Source: Thiobacillus sp. SCUT-2 | Lineage (GTDB): Bacteria > Pseudomonadota > Gammaproteobacteria > Burkholderiales > Thiobacillaceae | DNA length: 64,000 nucleotides | Direction: 5' to 3' | Assembly: GCF_035621355.1 (NCBI RefSeq) | Contig: NZ_CP141769.1 | Location: 930,001-994,000, forward strand | In this document: positions 48,072 through 57,936 of the stretch, one piece after another | Layout of the letters: every line of letters begins with the position of its first letter | How positions within the stretch are numbered: the first letter of the stretch is position 1 | Position numbers and translations under genes: made by a program | Notes under the pieces: model-generated | Seen by the model: the letters and a program-made list of their open reading frames with translations, nothing else | Database searches by the model: none | Told to the model about the DNA's origin: nothing

Positions 48072-49385
48072 TCAGGTGGAAAGTTTGCCGCGCCAGTAGG
48101 CGGCGCGGGCGGTCAGGTCGTCGATGTCGAGATGGACCAGACGGCGTTCATTGAGTTTCAGCTGGCCGTCGACCCAGACGTGGGTGACGTGCTCGCGTCC
48201 CGCAACGTAAACCAGGTGCGAGACGGGGTCAAACAGCGGCTGGGCGGCGAGCGGGCGCAGGTCGACCGCGACGAGGTCGGCACGCTTGCCCGGCGCGATG
48301 CTGCCGATATGGTCGTCGAGGTTGAGCGCGCGGGCGGCATCGAGCGTCGCCATCCGCAGGGCCGCGGCGGCGGGCAGCGCGGCGGCGTCGCCGCTGATGC
48401 CCTTGGCAAGCAGGGCGGCCAGGCGCATTTCGGCGAACAGGTCGAGGCGGTTGTTGCTGGCCGCGCCGTCGGTGCCGAGGCCGACGTTGACGCCGGCGCG
48501 GACCAGATCGGCGATCGGCGCGAGGCCGGAGGCGAGCTTCAGGTTGGACGCCGGGCAGTGCGCGACGTGGCAGCCGTGCGCGGCGAGCGATTCGATCTCG
48601 GCCTCGTTGACGTGCACCGCGTGCACCCCGATGAAGTTCGGCCCCAGCAGCCCCAGCCGCGCCAGCCGCTCCAGCGGCCGCACGCCATGCTGGGCGAGAC
48701 TGTCCTGGATTTCGCCGGCCGTTTCGTGGACGTGGGTGTGGATCGGCAGGCCCAGCTGCTCGGCCAGCGTATTGATGCGGGTGAAGGTGGCGTCGCCGAT
48801 GGTGTAGGGCGCATGGGGCGCGAAGGCGAAGGACAGCAGCGGCTCCTCCTTCAGTTCGTCGCGCACGGCGAGGCCCTTCGTCAGGTAGTCGTCGGCGTCC
48901 GCGGCATAGGCGCTGGGAAATTCGAGGACGATCATGCCCAGCGTGGCGCGCATGCCTGCCTGCAGGAAGGCTTCGCCCGCGGCCTGCGGGTGGAAGTACA
49001 TGTCGTTGCAGGCGGTGATGCCGCCGGACAGCATCTCGGCGGCGGCGAGCAGCGTGCCGTCGAATACGAAGGCCTCCGAGACGTGCTGCTTCTCCGCCGG
49101 CCAGATGCGGTCCCGCAACCAGGACATCAGCGGAAGGTCGTCGGCGAAGCCGCGCAGCAGCGACATGGCGGCGTGGCCGTGCAGGTTCACCAGCCCCGGT
49201 ATCAGCGCGTGCCCCGGCAGGGTGACGGTCTGCGCGGCGGCGTAGCGGGCCCGCGCCGCGTCGGCCGGCAGCACGTCGAGAATGCGGCCGTCGCGCACCG
49301 CGACGGCATGGTCGGTCAGCGCCCCCTCGGCTTCGACGGGCACCACCCAGCGTGGCAGGAGGAGGAGATCGGCGGGGGCGTTCAT
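48072..49385 (-). CDS. mtaD: Amidohydrolase, MTA/SAH deaminase type (TrzA/MtaD-like)
   Basis: 437 residues of the cytosine-deaminase-like amidohydrolases. The zinc site starts with [15 protein letters not shown]; later His residues are in [11 protein letters not shown] and HVHETAGEI, and Asp in [11 protein letters not shown]. Closest function is deamination of 5'-methylthioadenosine or S-adenosylhomocysteine, which fits a place next to the SAM-using ubiG. The start [13 protein letters not shown] is family-like. The family is broad, so the substrate is not certain. Confidence 0.85.
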
Positions 49386-49555
49386 GGTGGCCCGCATTCT
49401 CACTGTTTGGGCCGCGCTTGGCAAAGGCCGCCGCGTCACGGCGCCGCCATCGGCGCGCGGCGTGCGGCAATTTGCCGCATTTTTCGCCGCGCCGGCCGAT
49501 GCTAGCATCGCTCAAAAGATGCATTGCTGATACCTGAATAATAAAGGGAGCGAAA

Positions 49556-50758
49556 TTGAGCGTGTTTCGATACGGCGCGTGGGCGGCGTCGCTGGCACTG
49601 CCCGTGCTCGTGCAGGCGCAGGCCGTCGCGGGCGGACCGGATTCGTCGCCGATGGCGCATGCCATGCACGGGCCTGCGCTCGCCGTGGGGGCGACGCTCG
49701 ACGGACGCGGCAGGCTGTGGCTGGCGCGGGTCGAGGACGGCCATCTGCTGGTCGCCCGCTCGGACGACGGGGGCGCGAGCTTTTCCGCACCGGTCAGCGT
49801 CAATCGCGAGCCTGAGACGATTTCCGCCGAAGGGGAGAACCGCCCCAAGATCGCGGTCGCGCGCGACGGCACGGTGCTGCTCAGCTGGAGCCAGGCGCTG
49901 CCGCAGCGGTTCACCGGCAACGTCCGCTTCGCGCGTTCCACCGACGACGGCCGCAGCTTCTCGGCGCCGGTCACGCTGAACGACGACCGCCGCATCGGGG
50001 GCCACAGCTTCGACTCGCTGGCGATCGACGGCGCGGGCGGGGTGGCGGTGGCGTGGCTCGACGGCCGCGACCGCGATGCCGCGAAGGAGCAGGGCGGCGC
50101 GTTCGACGGTTCGTCGGTCTATTTCGCGCGCTCGTCCGACAACGGCGCCCATTTCGACGCCAATCGCCGGCTCGCCGCGCACACCTGCCAGTGCTGCCGC
50201 ACGGCGCTGGCGTGGACAGCCGACGGGCCAGTGGCGTTGTGGCGCAACCTCTATGGCCGCAACACCCGCGACTTCGCGCTCGCCGACCTCGATACGGGAC
50301 GGCAGCGCCGCGCCACCGACGACGCGTGGCAGATCGACGCCTGCCCCCACCACGGCGGCGGGCTCGCGGTGGACGGCCGCGGTGCCCTGCACCTGGTGTG
50401 GTTCACCCAGGGAAGGACGCGCCAGGGCCTGTTCTACAAGCGCATCGCCGAAGGGCGTGAATCCGTGCCGATGGCGCTGGGCGACCCGGCGGCGCAGGCG
50501 GGACATGCGGCCGTGGCGGCGGCGGCCGACACGGTGCTGATCGCCTGGCGCGAATTCGACGGGCGCGCCTATGTCGTGCAGGCCATCCATTCGACCGACG
50601 GCGGGGCCTCGTGGAGCGCGCCGCGGCGTCTGGCGGAATCGGCCGGCGCGGCCGACTATCCGCTGCCGCTGACCGACGGCCGGCGCATGCTGGTGGTGTG
50701 GAACAGCGCCGCCGAGGGGGTGCGCGTCCTTCCGCTCGAGCCGGGGCCGGCGAAATGA
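49556..50758 (+). CDS. Exported BNR-repeat (sialidase-like) protein with Cys motifs
   Basis: 400 residues. A signal peptide (SVFRYGAWAASLALPVLVQAQA) is followed by a beta-propeller with Asp-box repeats (SDDGGASFSAP, STDDGRSFSAP, SSDNGAHFDAN, STDGGASWSAP). Two unusual clusters lie in the middle: HTCQCCRTAL and DACPHHGGG. True sialidase catalytic residues were not found. It starts with TTG at 49556, seven bases after GGGAG. It is the first gene of a TonB-type uptake operon, and the Cys/His clusters suggest metal binding. Confidence 0.75.
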   Translation: MSVFRYGAWAASLALPVLVQAQAVAGGPDSSPMAHAMHGPALAVGATLDGRGRLWLARVEDGHLLVARSDDGGASFSAPVSVNREPETISAEGENRPKIAVARDGTVLLSWSQALPQRFTGNVRFARSTDDGRSFSAPVTLNDDRRIGGHSFDSLAIDGAGGVAVAWLDGRDRDAAKEQGGAFDGSSVYFARSSDNGAHFDANRRLAAHTCQCCRTALAWTADGPVALWRNLYGRNTRDFALADLDTGRQRRATDDAWQIDACPHHGGGLAVDGRGALHLVWFTQGRTRQGLFYKRIAEGRESVPMALGDPAAQAGHAAVAAAADTVLIAWREFDGRAYVVQAIHSTDGGASWSAPRRLAESAGAADYPLPLTDGRRMLVVWNSAAEGVRVLPLEPGPAK

Positions 50759-51243
50759 TCGCGCGCATCCTGCTCGCGATCATGGCGGCGCTGGCGTGCT
50801 CGGGCGTGGCCCGCGCGGGCGAGCCGGCGCCGTTCACGGCGGACAGCCTGGAACGGATCGAGGCGCGCTACGCCGGCCGGCCGTTCATCCTCAGCCTGTG
50901 GTCGGTCAACGAGTGCAGCTACTGCATCGCCGAGCTGACCCTGTTCGGCAAGTTCGCGCGGACGCACCGAGGGCTGCCGCTGGTGCTGGTGGCGGCGGAT
51001 TCGCCCGCCTACGTGCCCGCCATGCGGCAAACCCTGGAGCGGCTCGGGCTCGCCGGCGTCGACGCCTGGGTGTTCGACGATCCCATCCCGGAGCGGCTGC
51101 GCCATGCCATCGACCCGGCGTGGTACGGCGAGCTGCCGCGCACCTACCTCTACGACGCCCGGCACCGGCGCCAGGCGGTCGTCGGCGAACTGGGCGAGCG
51201 GCGCCTGCGGGCGTGGCTCAGGGAGCAGCGGCTCGATCACTGA
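50755..51243 (+). CDS. TlpA-like thioredoxin-fold protein, exported
   Basis: 162 residues with a signal peptide (MIARILLAIMAALACSGVARA). A thioredoxin fold follows with active site NECSYC in LSLWSVNECSYCIAELTLF. It should act in the periplasm on disulfides. It overlaps the BNR stop by four bases, so a thiol partner for the Cys-rich BNR protein is plausible. It ends 25 bases before the TonB-dependent receptor gene. Confidence 0.82.
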   Translation: MIARILLAIMAALACSGVARAGEPAPFTADSLERIEARYAGRPFILSLWSVNECSYCIAELTLFGKFARTHRGLPLVLVAADSPAYVPAMRQTLERLGLAGVDAWVFDDPIPERLRHAIDPAWYGELPRTYLYDARHRRQAVVGELGERRLRAWLREQRLDH

Positions 51244-51268
51244 CTTCAAACAAACGTACGGAGAACCC

Positions 51269-53419
51269 ATGAAGCTCAACCCCATTCCGCTCGCGCTGGC
51301 GGGCGTCCTGTTTGCGCCCGCCGCGTGGTCGGCCGATTCCGGCGAATCGGCGCTGCCGGAAATGACCGTGACCGGCACCCGCGAAGGCGAACTCCTGAGC
51401 GAGACGCCGGCGACGGTCGACGTCGTCAAGGACCGGACCCTTCGCGAGACCCGCCCCACCCACCCGAAGGACGTGCTCAACCAGGTGCCCGGCGTGTGGA
51501 TCAGCAATCTGTCGGGCGAGGGCCACTCCACGGCGATCCGCCAGCCGCTGACGACCAGCCCGGTGTATCTCTATCTGGAGGACGGCATCCCGACGCGCTC
51601 CACGGGCTTCTTCAACCACAACGCGCTGTACGAGATCAACGTGCCGCAGGCGGGCGGGATCGAGGTCATGAAGGGGCCGGGCAGCGCCCTCTATGGCTCG
51701 GACGCGATCGGCGGCACGATCAACGTGCTGACCCGCACGCCGCCGAAGTCGGCCGAGTTCGAAGCGAGCGCGGAGGCGGGCGCGTTCGGCTGGAAGCGCG
51801 CCCTGATGAGCGGCGGCAATGCGAAGGGCGACGACGCCTGGCGCGCCAGCCTCAATCTGACGCATACGGACGGCTGGCAGGATGATGCCGGCTACGACCG
51901 CCAGACCGGCACGACGCGCTGGGACCGCGCCCTCGGCGACGACGCGCTGCTGAAGACGGTGCTGTCGTTCTCGAAGGTCGACCAGCAGCACGTCGGCAAG
52001 CTGAGCGCGGGCGAGTTCGCCGCCACGCCGCGCGCCAACAACGTCCCGTTCTCCTATCGCCAGGTCGACGCCCTGCGCCTGTCGACCGCATACGAGCGGG
52101 AGACCGCCGATACGCTGATCTCGATCACGCCCTACTTCCGTGACGACAGCATGGAGATCATTCCGAACTGGAGCGTCAGCTACGATCCCAGCCGCTACGT
52201 CACGCAGAACCGCTCCTTCGGCTTCCTCAGCAAGTACCGGCGCGACTTCCAGCCCTTGCGGGCGCGCCTCATCGTGGGGCTGGATTTCGACTACAGCCCG
52301 GGCTCGCGCGACGAGGATTCGATCCGCCTCGACAAGCTGGCCAACGCCTACGGCGGAACGAGCTACAGCCTCAATACCGGCGTCGCGCCGGTCAAGATCT
52401 ACGAATACGACGTCAACTACCGCGGCATTTCGCCCTACGTCCACGGCGAGGCCTCGCTCACCGAACGGCTGCGCGTGACTGCCGGCCTGCGCTACGACGA
52501 CATGCAGTACGACTACACGAACCGCTTCAACAACGGCGTGGCCGGGGCGACCCAGGGCGCGCCCGGACCCTATCCCGCAAGCGGATGGTACGGCCACGTC
52601 GCCAGCACCACCGTCGGCTACAGCCACTGGGGGCCCAAGCTGGGGGCAACCTACGCCTTCAGCGACGCGCTGAGCGGCTTCGCCTCGTACAGCAATTCCT
52701 TCCGCGCCCCGTCCGAAGGCCAGGTCTTCCGCGGCAGCCGCGAATCCACCGCGCCCAAGGCGCAGGCCGCGGCGGAATCGCTGCTCGACCTGCGGCCGGT
52801 GGTCGTCGACAACCTGGAACTCGGCCTGCGCGGCAAATCCGGCCGGGGACTGCGCTACGAGGCGTCCGTCTATCACATGACCAAGCGCGACGACATCGTC
52901 AGCTACATCGACCCCGTTACCCAAGGACGAACGGTGGTCAACGCCGGCAAGACCCTGCACCGCGGCATCGAGCTGGGGCTGGGTGCACCGCTGGCACGCG
53001 ACTGGCAGCTCGACGTCAGCCTGTCGTATGCCCGGCATACCTACGAAGAGTGGGTCGCGGCGGTAAACGGCCAGAATATCGACTACAGCGGCAAGGAAAT
53101 GGAGGCCGCTCCGCGCGTGATCGCCAACACTCGCCTGACCTACGCCCCCGGCTATCTCAACGGTGGCCGCGTGCAGCTGGAATGGTTCAGGCTCGGCAGC
53201 TACTGGCTGGATGCCGCCAACACCGGCAAGTACGGCGGCCACGACCTGGTCAACCTGCGTGCCAACTATCCGTTCGGCAAGGGCATGGAAGTGTTCGGCA
53301 GCATCAGCAACCTGTTCGACAAGCGCTACGCGGAGACCGCGGACGGCACCGGCGCCGCGCCGACCTATACCGCCGGCCTGCCGCGCCTCGCGATCCTCGG
53401 GCTGCAGGCCAAATGGTGA
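51269..53419 (+). CDS. TonB-dependent outer-membrane receptor
   Basis: 716 residues. A signal peptide ends at PAAWSA. The TonB box region PEMTVTGTR, the plug (ATVDVVKDRTLRET, VEVMKGPGSALYGSDAIGGTINV-like segment) and a long beta barrel ending in the terminal strand LAILGLQAKW are all present. Substrate unknown; neighbouring Cys-rich and TlpA-like proteins suggest a metal or metal complex such as copper, but haem or siderophores remain possible. Confidence 0.93.
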   Translation: MKLNPIPLALAGVLFAPAAWSADSGESALPEMTVTGTREGELLSETPATVDVVKDRTLRETRPTHPKDVLNQVPGVWISNLSGEGHSTAIRQPLTTSPVYLYLEDGIPTRSTGFFNHNALYEINVPQAGGIEVMKGPGSALYGSDAIGGTINVLTRTPPKSAEFEASAEAGAFGWKRALMSGGNAKGDDAWRASLNLTHTDGWQDDAGYDRQTGTTRWDRALGDDALLKTVLSFSKVDQQHVGKLSAGEFAATPRANNVPFSYRQVDALRLSTAYERETADTLISITPYFRDDSMEIIPNWSVSYDPSRYVTQNRSFGFLSKYRRDFQPLRARLIVGLDFDYSPGSRDEDSIRLDKLANAYGGTSYSLNTGVAPVKIYEYDVNYRGISPYVHGEASLTERLRVTAGLRYDDMQYDYTNRFNNGVAGATQGAPGPYPASGWYGHVASTTVGYSHWGPKLGATYAFSDALSGFASYSNSFRAPSEGQVFRGSRESTAPKAQAAAESLLDLRPVVVDNLELGLRGKSGRGLRYEASVYHMTKRDDIVSYIDPVTQGRTVVNAGKTLHRGIELGLGAPLARDWQLDVSLSYARHTYEEWVAAVNGQNIDYSGKEMEAAPRVIANTRLTYAPGYLNGGRVQLEWFRLGSYWLDAANTGKYGGHDLVNLRANYPFGKGMEVFGSISNLFDKRYAETADGTGAAPTYTAGLPRLAILGLQAKW

Positions 53420-53441
53420 GCGCGGCGGGCGGCGCAGGCGC

Positions 53442-54134
53442 ATGAACGGCTGGCCGCGGCGCTGGGGCGGGCAACGCGCGGCCGTCCTGCTGGCGGTGCT
53501 GGCCGCCCATGGCGGCGTACTCGCCGGCCTCTGGCACGGGCGCGCGGTTGCGCCCCGGCCGGCGGCGGCGACGCTGTTCGTGAGTGTCGTCGGCCCGTCG
53601 CCCCGGCCCGTTCAGCCCGCGCGCGTTCCGCCGCCACCCCGTGAGCCGGCGAGACAGGCGACGCGGCTGCCCGGGCCGGGGCCGCGCGTGGTCGCGGCGC
53701 AAGCGCCGGCGGAAGCGCCGCCCGAGACGCCGGCGCCCGCGTCGCAGCCCGCGTCACAGCCCGCGCCGTCGCCGGCACCGGCGCGCGCGTCGACGCCGCC
53801 GTCACCGGCGCCGGTGCCCGCGCCGCCCCGGCCTGAAGGGCCCGTGGCGCTGGAATCGGACCTGGCCGTGGCCTGCCCGGAGCGCACGCCGCCGGCCTAT
53901 CCGCCGCTCGCGCGCCGGCTGGGCGAAACCGGCAAGGTCGTCCTGCGCGTCGAGCTCGACGAAAGCGGACGCGTGAGCGCGGCGCAGGTACTGGCCGGCA
54001 GCGGCTCCGCCCGGCTCGACGCCGCTGCGCTCGCGGCGGTCAGAACCTGGCGGTGCCAGCCGGCGCGGCGCGACGGGCAGGCGGTCCGCGCGGTCGCGAC
54101 GCAGCCATTCAATTTCACCCTGGAGGGATCCTGA
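53442..54134 (+). CDS. tonB: TonB energy transducer
   Basis: 230 residues. One N-terminal membrane segment (AAVLLAVLAAHGGVLAGLWH), a long Pro/Ala-rich spacer (about residues 55-145) and a C-terminal TonB domain (PAYPPLARRLGETGKVVLRV, SGSARLDAAALAAVRTWR). It carries energy from ExbB/ExbD to the receptor. It lies between the receptor and exbB genes. Confidence 0.9.
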   Translation: MNGWPRRWGGQRAAVLLAVLAAHGGVLAGLWHGRAVAPRPAAATLFVSVVGPSPRPVQPARVPPPPREPARQATRLPGPGPRVVAAQAPAEAPPETPAPASQPASQPAPSPAPARASTPPSPAPVPAPPRPEGPVALESDLAVACPERTPPAYPPLARRLGETGKVVLRVELDESGRVSAAQVLAGSGSARLDAAALAAVRTWRCQPARRDGQAVRAVATQPFNFTLEGS

Positions 54135-54136
54135 GC

Positions 54137-54877
54137 ATGGACAACACCCTGGGCTTCGCCCACTTCCTCTCGCACAGCGACGCGCTCGGGCGCATCGTCC
54201 TCGTGCTGCTGCTCGCGCTCTCGGTGGCGAGCTGGTACCTGATCGTGACCAAGGCGCTGGCGAACCACCGGGCCGGGCGTCGCGCCGAGACGTTCCTCAG
54301 GCAGTTCTGGGCGGCCGATTCCCTGCAGGACATCGCCGCGGCACTGCGCCAGCGGCCGGCGGACAACGCGTTCGCCGAGCTGGCGCAGGCGGCGCTCGAC
54401 GCCGCCCACGAGCACCACCAGCATGGCGTCCAGAAGCTGGCCGCGGCGGGCGGGCTGGGCGAATTCCTCACCCGCCTCCTGCGCAACGGCATCGACCAGG
54501 AAGCGATGCGCGTCGAGCGCGGGCTCACGGTGATGGCCTCGGCCGGCTCCGCGGCGCCCTACATCGGCCTGTTCGGCACCGTCTGGGGGATCTACCATGC
54601 GCTGCTCGCCATCGGCCTGTCCGGCCAGGGAACGCTCGACAAGGTGTCGGGCCCGGTCGGGGAGGCGCTCATCATGACGGCGCTCGGCCTCGCGGTGGCG
54701 ATTCCGGCGGTGCTCGCCTACAACGCGTTCAACCGCCGCAACCGCGTCTGGCTGGCCCGGCTGGACGGCTTCGCCCACGACCTGTACACGGTGATCACGG
54801 TGGGCGAACGCGCCAGCCGGCCGGCCGCCGTCGTGCACCCGCTGCGCGCGGCGCCGCCCGTCGGCGCGAAGGGGTGA
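54137..54877 (+). CDS. exbB: ExbB proton channel subunit
   Basis: 246 residues with three membrane segments. The MotA/ExbB core is TVMASAGSAAPYIGLFGTVW and GPVGEALIMTALGLAVAIPA. Forms the energising complex with ExbD in the inner membrane. Start MDNTLGFAHFLSHS lies just after the tonB stop. Confidence 0.93.
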   Translation: MDNTLGFAHFLSHSDALGRIVLVLLLALSVASWYLIVTKALANHRAGRRAETFLRQFWAADSLQDIAAALRQRPADNAFAELAQAALDAAHEHHQHGVQKLAAAGGLGEFLTRLLRNGIDQEAMRVERGLTVMASAGSAAPYIGLFGTVWGIYHALLAIGLSGQGTLDKVSGPVGEALIMTALGLAVAIPAVLAYNAFNRRNRVWLARLDGFAHDLYTVITVGERASRPAAVVHPLRAAPPVGAKG

Positions 54878-54881
54878 CGCC

Positions 54882-55298
54882 ATGGCGATGGGAAGCTTCG
54901 ATTCGCGCTGCCGCCAGGGACCGATGGCGGAAATCAACGTCGTTCCGCTGGTCGACGTGATGCTCGTGCTGCTGGTGATCTTCATCGTCGCGGCGCCGCT
55001 GCTGACCCATACCGTCCGGGTCGACCTGCCCAAGGCCAGCAGCGCGCCCGCCGCCATCCGGACCGAACCGGTGGTGCTCGCGATCCGGACGGACGGCCGC
55101 TTCTACTGGAACGGGCGGGCCGTCATGCGGGGCGAACTCGGGGCACGCTTCGCGCTCGAGGCGCGGAAGCAGCCGCAGCCCGAGCTGCATATCGAGGCCG
55201 ACCGGCTGGTGCCCTACGAAACCATGGCCCAGGTGATGTCCGAAGCCGCGAAATCGGGGCTGACGCGCATCGGATTCGTGACCGATCCGTCGCAATAG
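54882..55298 (+). CDS. exbD: ExbD proton channel subunit
   Basis: 138 residues with a single N-terminal membrane helix. [20 protein letters not shown] contains the essential Asp of the ExbD channel. The periplasmic part ends [20 protein letters not shown]. Last gene of the TonB operon. A GC-rich stretch follows before the gyrA promoter. Confidence 0.93.
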
Positions 55299-55339
55299 GC
55301 GGGCGGGGCGGCCCGCCGGGGCGGGGCGGCCGGCCATGC

Positions 55340-55345
55340 TAAAAT
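55340..55345 (+). promoter_or_regulatory. gyrA extended -10 promoter
   Basis: TGCTAAAAT gives a TAAAAT -10 with an upstream TG, and the run GCTAAAATCGGGCGCTTT is almost the same as that at 7631-7648. Transcription would start near 55352, about 30 bases before the gyrA ATG. Confidence 0.6.
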
Positions 55346-55380
55346 CGGGCGCTTTGCAGCCTGATAAACAGAAGCCGGTC

Positions 55381-57936
<2,556 letters not shown>

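Follow-up and report, generated by a model that had tools for sequence, protein, structure and literature searches.

Only in 2025-2026, with TccA, CrtA and CrpH, did it begin to emerge how copper enters Gram-negative bacteria through the outer membrane and what becomes of it in the periplasm. In Caulobacter vibrioides, the TonB receptor TccA is needed for the aa3 oxidase, a requirement rescued by copper; its gene neighbours encode PCuAC and Sco1, and a two-His site is predicted, formed by His116 and another His (PMC12617631). In published operons of the copper receptor CrtA, the usual partner is a PepSY_TM protein (PMC12914433), and CrpH, which belongs to this type, is a putative periplasmic copper reductase (PMC13038864). 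Here we describe an operon in a 64,000-nucleotide stretch of Thiobacillus sp. SCUT-2 DNA (the window) that reads, with a probability of roughly two in three, as a TonB-dependent copper importer in which a propeller protein takes over the copper and a thioredoxin-like protein services the propeller in place of PepSY_TM. A search of open-licence papers returned no description of this propeller/thioredoxin pair.

The operon occupies positions 49556-55298 of the forward strand and consists of six tightly packed genes, encoding in order a BNR propeller, a thioredoxin-like protein, a TonB receptor, TonB, ExbB and ExbD, with intergenic gaps of -4, 25, 22, 2 and 4 bp (Table 1). The first-pass annotation had listed these same six genes, all of which were recovered in place, and the motifs it had singled out, HTCQCCRTAL (residues 209-218) and DACPHHGGG (262-269) in the propeller and CSYC (54-57) in the thioredoxin-like protein, are exact. 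The propeller gene starts with a TTG codon preceded by aagggagcg and overlaps the thioredoxin-like gene by 4 bp, and a promoter scan found none upstream of the operon on its strand. The flanking genes are mtaD (upstream, divergent) and gyrA (downstream), and this neighbourhood holds no copper gene. The TonB_C, MotA_ExbB and ExbD domains all exceed their Pfam cut-offs, which identifies a TonB-ExbB-ExbD energiser set. Against NCBIfam, the ExbB and ExbD proteins (54137-55298) score nearer the TolQ/TolR than the ExbB/ExbD models, all below cut-off.

Table 1. Features of the six-gene operon, with positions counted from the first nucleotide of the window.
Feature	Position	Strand	Evidence
BNR/sialidase-fold propeller, exported, 7-bladed, 400 aa; proposed periplasmic copper acceptor	49556..50758	+	ORF, Pfam BNR_2, AF2, alignment
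Signal peptide and N-terminal linker with His/Met (..PMAHAMHG)	49556..49669	+	Sequence; H+M composition
CQCC motif (C211, C213, C214), blade 4	50186..50197	+	60/60 invariant; kept at 23-27% identity
CPHH motif (C263-H266), blade 5, CQCC register	50342..50353	+	Conservation; blade alignment
Thioredoxin-like protein, exported, 162 aa, TlpA/ResA fold	50755..51243	+	ORF; AF2; fold matches; L109 fusion
CSYC (CxxC) active-site motif	50914..50925	+	CxxC in 59/59 orthologues
TonB-dependent outer-membrane receptor	51269..53419	+	Pfam plug, barrel; subfamily alignment
Plug His86 (GEGHSTAIRQP)	51524..51526	+	Invariant: 16 close and 7 distant cassette-type receptors
Plug His117 (FFNHNALYEIN)	51617..51619	+	Invariant: 16 close and 7 distant cassette-type receptors
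Dedicated TonB	53442..54134	+	TonB_C 1e-22; one of five genomic TonB_C matches
ExbB (TolQ-like)	54137..54877	+	MotA_ExbB 3e-32; NCBIfam
ExbD (TolR-like)	54882..55298	+	ExbD 8e-30; NCBIfam

The propeller matches Pfam BNR_2 (6e-11; 42.6 bits against a cut-off of 31.4) and shows the Asp-box repeats and propeller fold of this group. Its AlphaFold2 (AF2) model (pLDDT 86.5, pTM 0.85) resembles CylK (Z ~31), 7-bladed PLL lectins (Z ~27), sialidase-type enzymes and, as a further fold neighbour, YncE (Z 24.0 over 279 residues). Ten residues (C211, C213, C214, R215, R230, H150, W258, C263, P264 and H279) are invariant in all 60 homologues aligned, and H265, H266 and H317 are kept in 59, 56 and 57 of them, respectively; near-invariance on this scale indicates that the CxCC and CPHH clusters are not a chance occurrence. 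The first-pass annotation had named absence of the Cys from orthologues as part of what would refute its metal reading, and C211, C213, C214 and C263 are retained in every homologue aligned. More distant homologues (23-27% identity) likewise all keep CxCC and CP, and the two His vary; since H265/H266 are replaced in the Roseobacter proteins, which read GCPVNG, only the four Cys are universal. A role in sialidase activity or sugar uptake was rejected as the main reading because of the Cys/His conservation and the copper neighbours described below; the likeness to sialidases is one of fold.

According to DSSP, the conserved motifs immediately precede the innermost strand in successive blades of the modelled propeller. 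When the seven blade starts are aligned, C211 and C263 share one column, the next column but one holds E94, H150, C213 and H265, the following one N95, S151, C214 and H266, and the one after that R96, R215 and H317. In the model, CQCC (blade 4) and CPHH (blade 5) therefore occupy the equivalent loop of adjacent blades, so that these residues should ring a single mouth of the central channel. The argument for a single site rests on blade register, since inter-residue distances were deduced from it and not from coordinates. The structural model of the Cys clusters called for by the first-pass annotation thus delivers a confident fold and one shared register, and proximity within one site is the part deduced from that register. 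Between the signal peptide and the propeller, the linker contains 21% His+Met, compared with 5% in the domain (57 homologues), with typical starts such as HDMAGMPM and HEGMSM; the excess peaks in Rhodanobacteraceae, and for linkers picked from other groups a rough estimate is 9-17%. Some propellers carry a lipobox (e.g., VVSGC in L104).

The thioredoxin-like protein combines a thioredoxin fold, a CxxC motif and an export signal, as in the TlpA/ResA/DsbE class, with Pfam scores below the cut-offs (AhpC-TSA, 0.002). Its AF2 model (pLDDT 91.3) finds DsbF/ResA-type reductases as the nearest folds (Z ~13), the CxxC is kept in 59 of 59 orthologues, and the CxxxCP motif of SCO1/SenC proteins is absent from all the orthologues aligned. 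In one locus (L109:7030-8733) the propeller and the thioredoxin-like protein are fused into a single polypeptide of 567 residues, as checked by eye, and this natural fusion is strong evidence that the two act together. The thioredoxin profile derives partly from out-of-frame extended ORFs and is meaningful only in its C-terminal part (model 651-789); among the plasmids searched for the thioredoxin partner there was no match.

The receptor shows clear Pfam matches to the barrel (6e-45) and the plug (7e-17), and two of its plug residues, His86 and His117, are invariant across the 23 cassette-type receptors compared. Its best NCBIfam scores are to a siderophore model (174.6 bits; cut-off 223.5) and a haem model (144.9 bits; cut-off 316.9), followed by weak matches to PqqU (128 bits; cut-off 1200) and BtuB (121 bits; cut-off 599.7). 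The first-pass annotation had held that clear grouping with siderophore or haem receptors would speak against its reading, and the receptor falls below the curated cut-off of every siderophore, haem and B12 model. Assignment to OprC/NosA (TIGR01778) was rejected (33 bits against a cut-off of 472.45), the CxxxM plug site of OprC is not present in the window receptor, and the aligned receptors share no conserved Cys. Nor could the receptor be placed in the CrtA type by sequence: CrtA (9RVQ) matches two partial stretches at 73.7 bits, a score that barely exceeds those of unrelated receptors, even though CrtA is still the nearest solved sequence by whole-protein score, partially aligned. A PDB sequence search with the divergent receptor of locus L018 gave no match.

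A scan of 84,980 genomes yielded 61 propeller loci, with a thioredoxin-like gene following the propeller in nearly all of them; Thiobacillus and other Hydrogenophilales supplied close homologues. Among 369 genomes sampled across the class (GTDB class, beta-proteobacteria included) there are about 20 strong propeller homologues, nearly every one from a different family. The pair recurs in ~80 loci, and the family in about one in 16 sampled gammaproteobacterial genomes in the GTDB sense. The 20 class-sample flanks mostly show a TonB receptor adjoining the propeller, then the thioredoxin; nine of these receptors are ~45-54% identical to the window receptor over their full length, and the others are ~31-35% identical or of a different type. 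The description of the operon as a private system is accordingly borne out as regards its own TonB, ExbB and ExbD and has to be given up as regards the lineage, the receptor-propeller-thioredoxin set being widespread in Gammaproteobacteria (GTDB sense). In two related genomes (L102:4454-9383 and L110:2023-4983), the cassette is adjoined by large oxidoreductase genes that are molybdopterin/FeS-like by sequence.

The partners of the receptor bear on the function of the pair. A receptor-subfamily search of the class sample gave 15 matches above 700 bits. Ten of these nearest receptors adjoin a propeller, nine of them with a thioredoxin gene or domain in the flanks retrieved or, for the window, in the operon, and the other (G317) on a short contig. 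In the remaining five (L142-L146), the gene immediately downstream encodes a PepSY_TM protein, and in four of these loci recognisable TonB/ExbB/ExbD-type genes follow or overlap it. Both partners together were found beside none of the 15, and PepSY_TM is absent both from the window operon and from the whole genome that carries it. A split this clean would arise with a probability of ~3e-4 if partners were dealt at random, relatedness being ignored. Given this exclusivity, the pairing of CrtA with PepSY_TM and the role proposed for CrpH, the propeller/thioredoxin pair most likely does the equivalent job of PepSY_TM with soluble proteins. Two of the PepSY_TM proteins (L144:9439-10914 and L145:5580-7100) contain Asp-box-like motifs (SVDGGRTW, TRDGGHTW, SADNG) outside their membrane part, as if the reductase had a built-in propeller.

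Gene neighbourhoods of related loci point to copper. A PCuAC gene (Pfam 1e-35) lies directly upstream in loci of the Thiobacillus thioparus type and also occurs near L070, SodC (Cu/Zn-SOD, 9e-42) is encoded upstream of the operon in close relatives, and L022 and L031 carry an OprC-like receptor gene alongside. Among the annotated neighbours in the class sample, dedicated copper genes stand close by only in L114, with a copper-type P-type ATPase (CopA) and CueR above its cut-off. RegB/RegA, a general redox regulator, is encoded beside the cassette in 37 loci (31 of Rhodanobacteraceae type, Thiobacillus L015 and five class-sample families), and its presence in 5/20 class-sample loci has a chance of ~6e-8 under a uniform model. 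The window genome itself (G000, one 3.01 Mb contig) has five TonB_C matches, four receptors above the Pfam cut-off and four COX1 matches, and encodes PCuAC away from the operon. There, at 2.88 Mb, PCuAC, an OprC-type receptor with the plug motif VSACGNHMN, and RegB/RegA form one locus (L135:5552-10471; G000:C1 ~2881551-2886470). Of the four TonB receptors encoded here, two are thus probably copper receptors.

Distant propeller homologues on plasmids (25-30% identity) are also found in copper-associated operons. In Sulfitobacter and Phaeobacter, the distant propeller accompanies copper oxidase, copper-binding protein and azurin genes, and in Sulfitobacter indolifex a CusA-type RND pump adjoins such an operon. 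On conjugative Roseobacter plasmids (L139:2236-8101, L140 and L141), a homologue annotated as 'sialidase family protein' ends an operon for copper oxidase, azurin and cytochrome c. On a Methylomagnum plasmid (L138:6827-8385), the distant propeller is followed by CopC, ~5 kb from genes annotated amoA/amoB. The suggestion of the first-pass annotation that a scarce metal such as copper is taken up here thus gains independent, circumstantial backing from gene neighbourhoods.

Collectively, the copper reading draws on these neighbourhoods, the conserved CxCC, CPHH and CxxC motifs, the His/Met-rich N-terminus, the PepSY_TM swap and the natural fusion. From the sequences, copper is probably the substrate, and its delivery to oxidases is somewhat favoured; that the propeller is a copper acceptor with thioredoxin-driven reduction comes close to an even bet. 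The receptor, energised by the TonB-ExbB-ExbD set of the operon, would carry copper over the outer membrane, probably in the form of a Cu(II) chelate, and the His/Met-rich N-terminus of the propeller would capture it in the periplasm. Binding could then involve one channel-mouth site formed by E94, H150, C213-C214, H265-H266 and H317, with C211 and C263 behind, residues for which the blade register is seen and metal binding is predicted from it. The CxxC of the thioredoxin-like protein, whose reducing role is suggested by gene pairing and fusion, may keep the propeller Cys reduced and/or donate electrons for the conversion of Cu(II) to Cu(I). The pair would thereby fill the slot held by PepSY_TM in the operons of the sister receptors and of CrtA, copper would be handed to chaperones such as PCuAC, and the operon would serve copper enzymes, most likely haem-copper oxidases.

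Copper may also be the substrate of a system in which the propeller, rich in disulphides, serves folding or docking, for instance as a periplasmic plug for the receptor, and the thioredoxin only maintains its disulphides. The four invariant Cys could indeed form two structural disulphides that the thioredoxin merely isomerises, H265/H266 vary in distant members, and the lipobox of some propellers fits a membrane-docked partner. This arrangement is nevertheless unlikely, as H150 and H279 are invariant too and H317 nearly so, the residues lie in one register of successive blades, the protein has a His/Met linker, and the equivalent slot is held by PepSY_TM, a putative metal reductase. Alternatively, the propeller could belong to copper tolerance, sequestering or oxidising periplasmic copper, and have been borrowed by a receptor operon. 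Its distant homologues do sit in plasmid operons of the resistance type, alongside CusA, copper oxidase, azurin and P-type ATPase genes, and CopA and CueR occur in L114; here, however, the propeller gene comes first in an operon for uptake, ahead of a receptor and TonB-ExbBD, and the propeller has links to PCuAC and RegB/RegA, which makes a tolerance function distinctly improbable.

Two further alternatives concern the substrate. Import of an iron chelate or haem, with incidental copper neighbours, would fit the siderophore and haem subfamilies that top the NCBIfam scores, as they do with many TonB receptors. These scores stay below cut-off, however, and the nearest solved sequence is CrtA, in partial alignment. 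Moreover, distant propellers occur in copper operons with no receptor in the stretch shown, and the operon has neither a ferric reductase nor a periplasmic binding-protein ABC gene; an iron or haem substrate is thus very improbable. Import of PQQ or cobalamin with a cofactor-binding propeller, by analogy with YncD(PqqU)/YncE and BtuB/BtuG, finds an echo in the weak PqqU and BtuB matches and in the fold neighbour YncE, but is the hardest to credit, as PqqU reaches a tenth of its cut-off and BtuB a fifth, and the Cys/His conservation and copper neighbours would be left unexplained. B12 uptake in particular was rejected: Rfam gave no match over 49000-55400, hence no cobalamin riboswitch, and the BtuB model scores far under its cut-off.

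Returning to copper import with a propeller acceptor, a broader and tentative proposal, to which we give somewhat less than even odds, is that the pair is a soluble periplasmic reductase/acceptor module that replaces PepSY_TM: a Cu(II) chelate would be reduced via the thioredoxin and Cu(I) held at the propeller mouth, in a Cys/His site, by a module that serves several copper receptor families and was also recruited by copper-tolerance operons. If true, the periplasmic copper step would have a second solution, built from soluble proteins, in hosts whose energy metabolism relies on copper oxidases, and the mutually exclusive swap of PepSY_TM and propeller/thioredoxin offers a direct, testable route to the functions of both.

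Among known systems, BtuG and YncE are likewise propeller proteins paired with a TonB receptor. The substrate of BtuG is B12 and that of YncE possibly PQQ, and we know of no CxCC/CPHH motif or thioredoxin partner for either propeller. The TlpA/ScoI pair of Bradyrhizobium also joins a thioredoxin of the TlpA/ResA kind to a Cys copper protein, which in the window is a CxCC/CPHH propeller and not a Sco protein. OprC/NosA is a TonB-dependent copper receptor, whereas the window receptor has two invariant plug His instead of a conserved CxxxM. The two-His likeness to TccA is one of description, and no propeller/thioredoxin pair is described for TccA. The CrtA (BfrG)-CrpH operon of Bordetella pertussis is likewise built around a TonB receptor, one that, as in the window, has no conserved Cys; operons of this kind sometimes include a TonB-ExbBD set and have links to copper and haem-copper oxidases (PMC12914433, PMC13038864, PMC9426467). 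The CrtA system differs in that PepSY_TM follows the receptor in over 75% of CrtA loci, whereas the propeller and thioredoxin of the window precede it; no CruR was seen in the window system, and the receptor alignment is partial. The relatives of the window receptor in L142-L146, like CrtA, precede a PepSY_TM gene.
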